Below the pieces are notes generated by a model. That model saw nothing but the letters and a program-made list of their open reading frames with translations, did no database searches and had not been told where the DNA came from. The translations under genes were made by a program, and so were the position numbers. This document shows positions 17,835-22,924 of a DNA stretch of 64,000 nucleotides, one piece after another. Source of the stretch: Algimonas porphyrae (lineage in GTDB: Bacteria > Pseudomonadota > Alphaproteobacteria > Caulobacterales > Maricaulaceae); contig NZ_CP163424.1 of assembly GCF_041429795.1 (NCBI RefSeq), positions 2,110,001 to 2,174,000 of the forward strand, given 5' to 3'. The first letter of the stretch is position 1. Every line of letters starts with the position of its first letter.

Positions 17835-18278
17835 GTGAGAAGATTCGTGGACACTGACATGGCATTTGCCGACGACCGTTGTATCAGACCCGTGCCGACC
17901 TTGAAGGCTGCGCCCCGGCTCCGTTCGAATCCGATCGAGACCTTCATCCGCATCGCTGTAGCCGAGAACTACGCCTATGAGCGGATTGGCGATCATGAGG
18001 TTCACATCAGTCTGCATGGTCTGTGGTGCGATCACGATCTCTCGCTGTCCTGGAATTCCAAGGAAGAACAGCTCTCCCTTTTCATTCTATTCGATGGTCG
18101 CGTACCGGGCGGACGGTCCGATGCGATCTGCCGCCTCCTGTCACTACTGAATGAGCGGCTGGCAGCGGGTCATTTCGATTTCTGGCAACGCAACGGCAAT
18201 CTCGTCTTCCGTCACTCCGTCTCATTACGAGGCGGCGCGGCCTTGTCGCTCGATCAGGCGCTCGACGTCATGAGTTAG
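17835..18278 (+). CDS. YbjN-family protein, reading frame closed early by an in-frame TAG
   Basis: Sensory-transduction-type YbjN domain as found in nearly all alphaproteobacteria. Visible family features: ERIGDHEVHISLHGLWCDHD, LSLFILFDGRVPGGRSD, LLSLLNERLAAGHFDFW and NLVFRHSVSLRGGA. The frame stops at TAG 18276-18278 after LDQALDVMS, whereas family members continue with a conserved last helix; that helix is encoded in the same frame immediately downstream (18279-18389). The N-terminal start is uncertain: GTG 17835, GTG 17847 or ATG 17859. Function in alphaproteobacteria is unclear; E. coli YbjN is linked to motility and stress. Confidence 0.75.
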   Translation: MRRFVDTDMAFADDRCIRPVPTLKAAPRLRSNPIETFIRIAVAENYAYERIGDHEVHISLHGLWCDHDLSLSWNSKEEQLSLFILFDGRVPGGRSDAICRLLSLLNERLAAGHFDFWQRNGNLVFRHSVSLRGGAALSLDQALDVMS

Positions 18279-18392
18279 AGTCTGGACGCTGCGGAACGGG
18301 GTTATCCGGCGGCCCAATACGTTATCTGGGCTGGCAAATCTCCTGAAGATGCCTTGGCCGAAGCCCTTGTGGATATCGCTTCCCACGGATAG
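18276..18392 (+). pseudogene. In-frame TAG and continuing C-terminal part of the YbjN-family gene
   Basis: After the TAG the same frame stays open for 37 codons and reads SLDAAERGYPAAQYVIWAGK then a short helix ending DIASHG, closed by TAG at 18390-18392. This is what I expect for the last part of alphaproteobacterial YbjN proteins (a segment like ALEACERYYPAFQFVLWAGK). The second stop lies 9 nt before the proC ATG, a normal intergenic spacing. So the original gene very probably ran to 18392 (185 codons plus stop). Readthrough, recent nonsense mutation or sequence error cannot be told apart here. Confidence 0.7.
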
Positions 18393-18401
18393 GCCCGCCT
18401 T

Positions 18402-19211
18402 ATGGCGCAGACTCACCTCATCGTTGGTGCTGGCAATATGGGCGGGGCTCTCCTGTCCAGCTGGGTGGGGGACTCGCTGGTCAATCCGCGCAACCTTGTC
18501 ATTCTCGACCCCAAGCCGGGCAGTGAGGCGGTCTATCTGATCGAACGCGGCGCACGGCATATCGAGGATGCCGACGATATTCCGAAATCGGTGCGCGTTG
18601 TCTTGCTGGCGATCAAGCCGCAGCTTTTTACTGGCCTCAGCCGTAAATTGGCGGCCGCTCTTCCGGCCGAACCCCTCATCATTTCCATCATGGCCGGCAC
18701 GGCGACCGATACGCTGGCCCGCGCCTTTCCCGACGCGATTATCGTCAGAGCCATGCCGAATACGCCCGCGGCTGTCGGCAGAGGCATCACGGCCTATGCG
18801 GCGGGTGACAGTCTGTCCGAGGAGCAGGCCAAGCTATGCGAGGCCCTGCTCGGTGCGAATGGCGAGGTCATCCGTGTGGCGGACGACCGTGCGATCGATG
18901 CTGTGACTGCCATATCGGGATCCGGTCCGGCCTATATCTTCCACCTCTGCGAAGCTCTCACCGATGCCGCCATGCAGGTCGGATTCGACGCCAAGACAGC
19001 GGCGCAGCTTGCCCGGGCGACACTGACGGGATCCAGCGCATTGCTTGAAGCATCCGAGCGGTCTGCAACGGAACTCCGCGAAGCCGTCACCTCCCCGGGT
19101 GGCACGACACAGGCGGCTCTGGACGTGTTGATGGCGGATGGCGCACTGATCAACCTGATGCGTCAAACCGTGCAGGCGGCGTTCGATCGCGCGCAGGAAC
19201 TGTCGGGCTGA
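18402..19211 (+). CDS. proC: Pyrroline-5-carboxylate reductase
   Basis: Last enzyme of proline synthesis, reducing pyrroline-5-carboxylate with NAD(P)H. The Rossmann signature LIVGAGNMGGALLSSW is at residues 5-20. VLLAIKPQLF, VRAMPNTPAAVGRGITAYA and the substrate-binding region ITAISGSGPAYIFHLCEAL are all present, as is the C-terminal VTSPGGTTQAALDVL. At 269 residues it is full length. It follows the YbjN-family frame directly; the YbjN-proC pair is common in alphaproteobacteria and suggests cotranscription. Confidence 0.97.
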   Translation: MAQTHLIVGAGNMGGALLSSWVGDSLVNPRNLVILDPKPGSEAVYLIERGARHIEDADDIPKSVRVVLLAIKPQLFTGLSRKLAAALPAEPLIISIMAGTATDTLARAFPDAIIVRAMPNTPAAVGRGITAYAAGDSLSEEQAKLCEALLGANGEVIRVADDRAIDAVTAISGSGPAYIFHLCEALTDAAMQVGFDAKTAAQLARATLTGSSALLEASERSATELREAVTSPGGTTQAALDVLMADGALINLMRQTVQAAFDRAQELSG

Positions 19212-21356: not shown

Positions 21357-22151
21357 ATGCTGGAAAAACCCTATCACGACCGTGACGGCCATATCTGGGT
21401 CGATGGGTCGTTCGTGGACTGGCGCGACGCCAATATCCACCTTCTGACACATTCCCTGCACTATGGTTCCGCCGTATTCGAAGGCGACCGCGCCTATGAC
21501 GGCAAGATTTTCCGTCTGACCAATCATTCAGCCCGACTGAAACGCTCTGCCGAGCATCTCGGCTACGAAATCCCCTATTCGGTCGAAGAAATCGATCAGG
21601 CCTGCCTCGACGCGCTCGCCAAGTCCGGACTGGGCGACGCCTATGTGCGGCCCGTCGCCTGGCGTGGCAGCGAAATGATGGGAGTGGCGTCGAAGAACAA
21701 TGTCATCCATCTGGCTGTCGCGACCTGGCACTGGGGCAACTACTTCCCCGACAAGATGAAGGGCATCCGGCTGATGATCTCGGACTGGAAACGCCCGGCA
21801 CCCGATACGATCCCATGCAAATCCAAAGCGGCGGGTCTCTACATGATCTGCACGCTGGCCAAGGACAAGGCGGCGGCAACGGGTTGGGACGACGCGCTGA
21901 TGTATGATTATCGCGGTCGCGTCGCTGAATGTACGGGCGCGCATATCTTCTTTGTCCGTGACGGAGAGCTCCACACACCCACAAACGATATCCTGCTCGA
22001 AGGCATCACTTATGACACGGTGATCAAGCTCGCCGAAAAACGCGGTATCACCGTGCATCGGCGCGACATCTATCCCAGCGAAATTTCGCATTTCGAACAA
22101 TGCTTCGTCGTCGGTACAGCAGCGGAAGTGACCCCTGTGCGCGAGATTTAG
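21357..22151 (+). CDS. ilvE: Branched-chain amino-acid aminotransferase, frame closed early by an in-frame TAG
   Basis: Fold-type IV PLP transaminase for Leu, Ile and Val. Family features: HYGSAVFEGDRAYDGKIF, YVRPVAWRGSEMMGV, the PLP-lysine region IPCKSKAAGLYMICTLAKDKA, MYDYRGRVAECTGAHIFFV and CFVVGTAAEVTPVREI. At that last motif the frame meets TAG (22149-22151) after 264 residues, whereas the family is usually about 290. The same frame continues downstream into the expected C-terminus. A ribosome-binding site AAGGAACG precedes the ATG. If the TAG is real and not read through, the enzyme loses its last helix. Confidence 0.85.
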   Translation: MLEKPYHDRDGHIWVDGSFVDWRDANIHLLTHSLHYGSAVFEGDRAYDGKIFRLTNHSARLKRSAEHLGYEIPYSVEEIDQACLDALAKSGLGDAYVRPVAWRGSEMMGVASKNNVIHLAVATWHWGNYFPDKMKGIRLMISDWKRPAPDTIPCKSKAAGLYMICTLAKDKAAATGWDDALMYDYRGRVAECTGAHIFFVRDGELHTPTNDILLEGITYDTVIKLAEKRGITVHRRDIYPSEISHFEQCFVVGTAAEVTPVREI

Positions 22152-22235
22152 GGTTCTCATTTTACCGTCGGTGACACGGTCAAACAACTCGCCGCCGATT
22201 ATGATGCTCTGGTGCGCGGTCAGATCACACTCTGA
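22149..22235 (+). pseudogene. In-frame TAG and continuing C-terminal part of ilvE
   Basis: Immediately after the TAG the frame reads GSHFTVGDTVKQLAADYDAL then VRGQITL and ends at TGA 22233-22235. IlvE proteins normally end this way: EVTPVREIG.., then F-T-(P/V)-G, then a helix with DYxALVRG. The TAG falls where the family commonly has glycine, with the spacing to the phenylalanine preserved, so no frameshift is needed. With one amino acid inserted at the TAG, the protein would be 292 residues, the normal length. Confidence 0.75.
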
Positions 22236-22924
22236 CACGGTCGTCTGCCCGTTAACCTCTGTCATCACGAGCCGCTCACCTGTCCTCGGCAATGAATGCC
22301 GGGAACGGGGGTCGGTTTGCAGGCAACCGCCACCCTGCGGCTGAGAGCGGGTCATCAGCATCACGCTTGACGTGAACCCTCATCATCAGAAGTGACACGA
22401 GGCGCGGACTCTGCCCCGTGACCGGAGCAAAAGATAAATACCGTTTCGTCGCAAGACGGAGCCCGCGCGCGGCGCTTGGTTCGTTTCGCCTGCCGCGCCT
22501 GCGACCCATCGCCTGCGGATTCCGCGGCCTAACCCCCGATGCCGGATCATGGCAGCGGCGGATGCTTGGCTCACGCGCGGTCCGCGAGGGACCAGCCTCA
22601 GAGGCGGCAGAGACAAGGAAGGGTATCAGCGGCAGCATAAACCGCCGACACATCCGCTATCGGCCCGGTCGCTCCGCCATCACCTGACGGACCTTTCCGG
22701 CTTTCACCGGTCGCGGACATGTCCGTCCGCAACACGGGCCGAAGCCCTCACACCGATCCGCCACACCGAGGGTTATGCCCCACCCCGTGTCCGTGACGGA
22801 CAAGGATAAAAGAGCATGGAAATGAGGGTCCGGGGATTAGGTTTGTGGGATTGGTGGTAGGTGATTGAAGCAACAGTCTTCTTGAAAGCCATAAGCGGGG
22901 ACTGAATACGCCACCTGACCCGCT

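Follow-up and report, generated by a model that had tools for sequence, protein, structure and literature searches.

The frame of ilvE, the gene for the branched-chain amino acid aminotransferase of Algimonas porphyrae, carries an in-frame TAG shortly before its expected end, raising the question of whether this stop is a very recent mutation, a site of readthrough or a base error. The original prediction had left these three explanations side by side. We addressed the question within the window, i.e. the whole stretch of 64,000 nucleotides that was analysed, in a larger part of the same genome and in related genomes.

The ilvE frame and its C-terminal continuation

As had been described, ilvE closes at the TAG after 264 residues, and the same frame runs on for 27 codons, GSHFTVGDTVKQLAADYDALVRGQITL, to a TGA at 22233–22235 in window coordinates. 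The features are collected in Table 1. Without the tail, the IlvE family model NF005726 (PRK07544) scores 440 bits, with the profile reaching position 266 of 295; when the tail is included and the TAG is read as X, the score rises by 23.7 bits to 463.7 and the match extends to position 291, both values lying above the curated cut-off of 396. The extended product thus fits the family, and the residues after the TAG are the usual IlvE ending, as predicted. The window gene resembles the family on both sides of the stop and differs from it in that the frame shuts 28 codons early in the present assembly.

Table 1. Features of the ilvE and ybjN regions, in window coordinates
Feature	Position	Strand	Basis
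ilvE (branched-chain amino acid aminotransferase) as assembled, 264 aa	21357..22151	+	NF005726, 440 bits
In-frame TAG of ilvE, codon/residue 265	22149..22151	+	CAG (Gln) / GAC (Asp) in the two closest relatives
GATTT (GANTT), a presumed GANTC (CcrM) site whose C was probably called T	22145..22149	+	excess tested motif-wide; single base judged from it
Normal IlvE C-terminus, 27 codons and TGA, family match kept	22152..22235	+	profile and pN
Gene of the YbjN family (orthologues of 177 codons), broken at codon 140	17859..18392	+	PF10722
Second in-frame TAG, in the YbjN gene; Gln (CAG/CAA) in both close relatives	18276..18278	+	comparison with relatives
GAGTT (GANTT) at the YbjN TAG	18272..18276	+	sequence

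To compare residue 265 between species, we used a set of 94 loci (L001–L094), 92 of which match at ≥55% identity. Leaving out two loci from the analysed genome itself and one that runs off its contig (L024), 89 loci remained, representing 79 distinct IlvE proteins with a total size of 285–306 aa. In all of them residue 265 is encoded by a sense codon (89/89 loci, 79/79 distinct proteins), and they continue through the C-terminus that the encoded frame lacks here, so that no close intact IlvE ending at the position of the TAG, the case that would have spoken for a natural terminus, was seen in this set. The residue itself is variable: glycine, which the original prediction had called common at this position, is found in 35 of the 79 proteins, followed by Asp in 23, Ala in 14, Gln in 3, Lys in 2 and Glu and Ser in one each. 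The suggestion holds for the family overall, but not for the two closest relatives, G006 (corresponding to Algimonas arctica KCTC 32513, locus L034) and G017 (an uncultured Algimonas, locus L035), which have GAC and CAG, respectively. The pN of the tail against these two relatives is 0.142 and 0.157, compared with 0.169 between the relatives themselves. A decayed pseudogene was therefore rejected, as the tail diverges no faster than it does between intact relatives.

A search for a second ilvE in the genome returned no close copy, only two other Aminotran_4 matches, one with 28% identity to the window IlvE and one a partial domain match within a 552-aa frame. There were no Rfam matches at gathering scores across the window. 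Syntenic agreement with the retrieved flanks of both close relatives ends immediately 3' of ilvE, from window position 22236 onward. In another genome of the family (G027:C9:33752-34536), the ilvE match consists of two overlapping pieces, reminiscent of a frameshift, with one internal stop each (TAA and TGA).

Interrupted genes elsewhere in the genome

Our scan for interrupted genes covered 704 kb (22%) of the analysed genome, the window included, together with 1.04 Mb from the two relatives, comprising 503 orthologous matches over 173,366 aa. In-frame stops were retained according to a coding-frame rule, in which the coding scores flanking the stop on either side are compared with those of the other frames. 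Four of the 32 stops flagged in the analysed genome passed the rule; among the 28 dropped were, for example, one in a frame running antisense to a prfC-like gene and others close to N-termini that had been over-extended. Under the same rule none of 69 flagged stops was kept in the relatives (0/8 in G017, 0/18 and 0/43 in two parts of G006).

The four retained stops lie in ilvE (TAG), ybjN (TAG), hflC (TAG) and a hydrolase-like gene (TGA), and their contexts are GATT-TAG, GAGT-TAG, GATT-TAG and GAGT-TGA, that is, GANT-T in four of four cases. Replacing this T by C would give a GANTC site in every case, so the stops look like products of a C-to-T change in GANTC. Intact codons that are one C-to-T or G-to-A step from a stop rarely occur in such sites (60/8663), giving a Fisher p of 2.7e-9 for the comparison with the four mid-gene stops, given the coding-frame rule.

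The ybjN stop, 3.9 kb upstream of that in ilvE, was revealed by syntenic comparison with the two relatives. The gene is located just upstream of a proC-like frame (18402–19211) and matches PF10722 with 62.9 bits without the part past the stop and 70.3 bits with it; the 37 codons past the stop contain a single residue difference from G017. In hflC (TIGR01932), the TAG cuts the gene near its middle (L222:8130-8132, genome position 1698130). The fourth stop is on the minus strand (L203:10740-10742, genome position 1920742), in a gene that we take from its sequence to be hydrolase-like; it is more diverged from the relatives (61% identity), with no conservation at the residue of the stop.

A separate scan of 304 kb based on an intrinsic coding score considered 1474 stop sites, of which 54 passed and 11 remained after an alternative-frame filter, mainly at adjacent gene pairs; ilvE was among the genes picked up, whereas ybjN was not. 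At genome position ~1613983–1613990 (L218), the orthologue of a 379-aa G006 protein is present as two abutting pieces, possibly due to a frameshift.

C-to-T substitutions at GANTC sites

A test independent of stops was carried out on 262 orthologue triplets, each consisting of the analysed genome and the two relatives, with 90,084 codon columns; C-to-T changes were counted on both strands. In the analysed genome, nonsynonymous C-to-T changes were found at 33 of 412 GANTC sites, whereas codon class predicts 7.8 (Z 9.9, odds ratio 6.6). These comprise 31 missense changes and two of the four stops. The relatives were close to expectation, with 8/299 (5.1 expected, Z 1.6) and 18/447 (14.6 expected, Z 1.1), and plain comparison of 33/412 with each of them gave p values of 0.003 and 0.014. 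Among 64 contexts of the form XYNZ, the GANTC-type C-to-T change ranks first, with the runner-up at Z 2.4, and in a codon-stratified scan of 3558 three-base contexts GA.T_ is again first (Z 9.7, second 4.9). Within the motif, the fifth-base C-to-T change shows the largest excess by a wide margin, and nonsynonymous sites with N=G are the most affected (16/73). The nonsynonymous excess amounts to ~6% of the 412 sites, about equal to the nonsense rate of 4/64; this equality implies a process that is blind to coding meaning and unfiltered by selection. Such a concentration of C-to-T and G-to-A substitutions at one methylase motif, irrespective of coding consequence, is what methylation-linked nanopore consensus errors would produce. 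Before the coding-frame rule is applied, raw stop gains by C-to-T in the triplets number 2/23 at GANT_ and 4/3763 elsewhere in the analysed genome, 0/5 and 0/3683 in G017, and 0/21 and 11/3869 in G006; the two at GANT_ in the analysed genome include neither ilvE nor the hydrolase-like gene.

Several observations count against this interpretation. The fourth base of the motif is mildly elevated as well (T-to-G 14 vs 6.7 expected, T-to-C 9 vs 4.5 expected), and T-to-G at this base is also raised in G017 (13 vs 6.4 expected). The synonymous class is less clean: the analysed genome has 35/100 changes against 17.8 expected, and G006 is likewise in excess, with 113/219 against 91.7. In a context scan without codon stratification, other contexts dominated and GANT_ was absent from the top eight. 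The early tests were null or weak: none of 12 GANTC sites common to both relatives in the syntenic blocks of the window was GANTT, and a first, smaller comparison gave 11/561 vs 7/594 and 1/311, so that it was the larger sample that decided. In the window alone, with 20 triplet genes, the nonsynonymous triplet events include only the YbjN stop.

Origin of the TAG

The genome encodes a putative cognate methylase for GANTC, a CcrM-like protein that matches NF050803 over residues 2–349 of 350 with 610.3 bits, below the model cut-off of 830, and contains an MTase domain (PF01555) and a RAMA domain, both above their own cut-offs. On the opposite strand it is adjoined by a frame that, going by its sequence, is MutY-like (the two frames lie at L236:17-1072 and 1156-2340). 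GANTC is the CcrM target according to PMC12392509 and PMC12710330. The analysed genome is a single contig of 3,169,281 bp with 0.16% contamination and a completeness of 99.88. For A. porphyrae LMG 26424, PMC11556061 describes an assembly built solely with Oxford Nanopore R10.4.1 data at 59x (model sup v4.2.0; Trycycler and Medaka), with a completeness of 99.84. Equal length, contig number and contamination, rather than an accession, suggest that the analysed record is this nanopore-only assembly.

Taken together, these data suggest that the TAG in ilvE is very probably a methylation-linked nanopore consensus error, neither readthrough nor a true mutation. CcrM would methylate the adenine of GANTC in the DNA of the strain, the modified signal in native-DNA nanopore reads would lead the basecaller to report T instead of C at some GANTC sites, and the error would persist in a consensus that received no short-read polishing. 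In ilvE, the in-frame CAG following GATT would thereby become TAG, and the last 28 codons would be lost on paper only. The genome-specific C-to-T excess at GANTC and the CcrM-like gene are demonstrated here, the platform and basecalling model of an assembly of this length and the GANTC-linked errors are taken from the literature, and that this single base is wrong is judged from the behaviour of the group as a whole. Base error, one of the three origins initially proposed, is thus strongly supported and its cause specified as C-to-T at GANTC. The same error probably accounts for the YbjN stop in GAGT-TAG, as it probably does for the TAG in hflC and for the TGA in the hydrolase-like gene; the effect is not peculiar to ilvE, and the same mistake appears to break other genes in the assembly.

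Methylation-linked assembly errors of this kind are known. According to PMC12710330, SNP errors in Agrobacterium nanopore assemblies mostly fall close to motifs that are probably methylated, GANTC among them, and methylation-aware models give fewer errors than v4.2.0; PMC11610573, covering 264 isolates of 32 species, describes ambiguities in native-DNA nanopore data that are mainly C/T or A/G, with RA/TY as the minimal motif. RA and TY correspond to the G-A and T-C of GANTC, making the fifth-base C-to-T change seen here a TY case. PMC10687267 appears to concern errors of the same kind. The likeness to the cases in PMC12710330 and PMC11610573 lies in C/T-type substitutions at methylated motifs; the differences are that the present errors are deduced from substitution contexts relative to two relatives, without reads, and that the genes hit and the rate of ~6% at GANTC apply to this assembly. 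Our literature searches returned no earlier account of such errors in it.

The magnitude of the effect argues against the error. With 1144 GANTC sites in 704 kb, the excess extrapolates to ~300 errors genome-wide, which exceeds the means given for Agrobacterium in PMC12710330 (23 SNP errors at ≥50x with v5.0.0, and 43 above 30x). PMC12392509, on Brucella, mentions only two potential GANTC-linked errors and states that for the most part methylated motifs produced no errors, and according to PMC11610573 most ambiguous reads favour C or G. PMC11556061 lists 25 pseudogenes in the LMG 26424 assembly vs 22 in the draft of the same strain (NBRC 108216, GCF_030159935.1), i.e. no large surplus.

If the consensus error is accepted, an apparent instance of readthrough or pseudogenisation in ilvE is eliminated as spurious. 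The deposited complete genome may, by extrapolation, carry ~300 C-to-T errors at GANTC. Motif-linked consensus errors would be detectable from one assembly and two relatives without reads, a useful check ahead of calling pseudogenes, recoding or selection in nanopore-only Alphaproteobacteria.

A true, very recent C-to-T nonsense mutation in the sequenced culture is the foremost alternative, and we regard it as unlikely. The ilvE tail is undecayed, one transition from CAG is enough to create the stop, and the strain was grown in Marine Broth (PMC11556061), a rich medium in which such a mutation would be tolerated; if it were real, one would expect auxotrophy for branched-chain amino acids, or a leaky phenotype. 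Its coincidence with three further GANT-T stops within the 704 kb would have to be assumed, and the GANTC-specific nonsynonymous excess, unfiltered by selection, also stands against it. Alternatively, the C-to-T changes could all be real, owing to a recent mutational process at the cytosine of ~6% of CcrM-type GANTC sites, as yet unfiltered by selection, that inactivated ilvE, hflC, ybjN and others, a scenario to which we assign very little probability. The genome has no match to the cytosine methylase family PF00145 that would suggest 5mC deamination.

Readthrough, or recoding of TAG as Gln to yield full-length IlvE, is the least credible of the proposed origins and would be extremely surprising. 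In three of the four cases the stop is a TAG that aligns with Gln in a close relative, and the tails past the stops are conserved; against this, the fourth interrupted gene has TGA, so that the stops (TAG, TAG, TAG, TGA) do not share one codon, and the stop is conserved in 0/79 distinct fetched IlvE relatives. A CTA anticodon is found in none of 38 tRNAs, with about three more unseen as PMC11556061 lists 41, and the sole tRNA-Gln among the 38 (TTG) does not differ in sequence from its G017 counterpart. At 2026487, a tRNA-like match with a weak score of 26.7 bits was rejected, as ARAGORN detects no tRNA there. The 38 tRNAs read include no Ile tRNA and, for Ala, only Ala(GGC); tRNAs of the rRNA operons may be missing or masked. 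The release factor gene prfA is present with an open frame, and TAG is an ordinary terminator, ending 18 of 68 scored orthologous genes. The tRNAs read, prfA, the ordinary TAG ends and the TGA case are strong arguments against a TAG code and leave no need to invoke suppression; on these grounds global or context-driven TAG recoding was rejected. All four stops, finally, share a DNA motif that also bears the missense excess.
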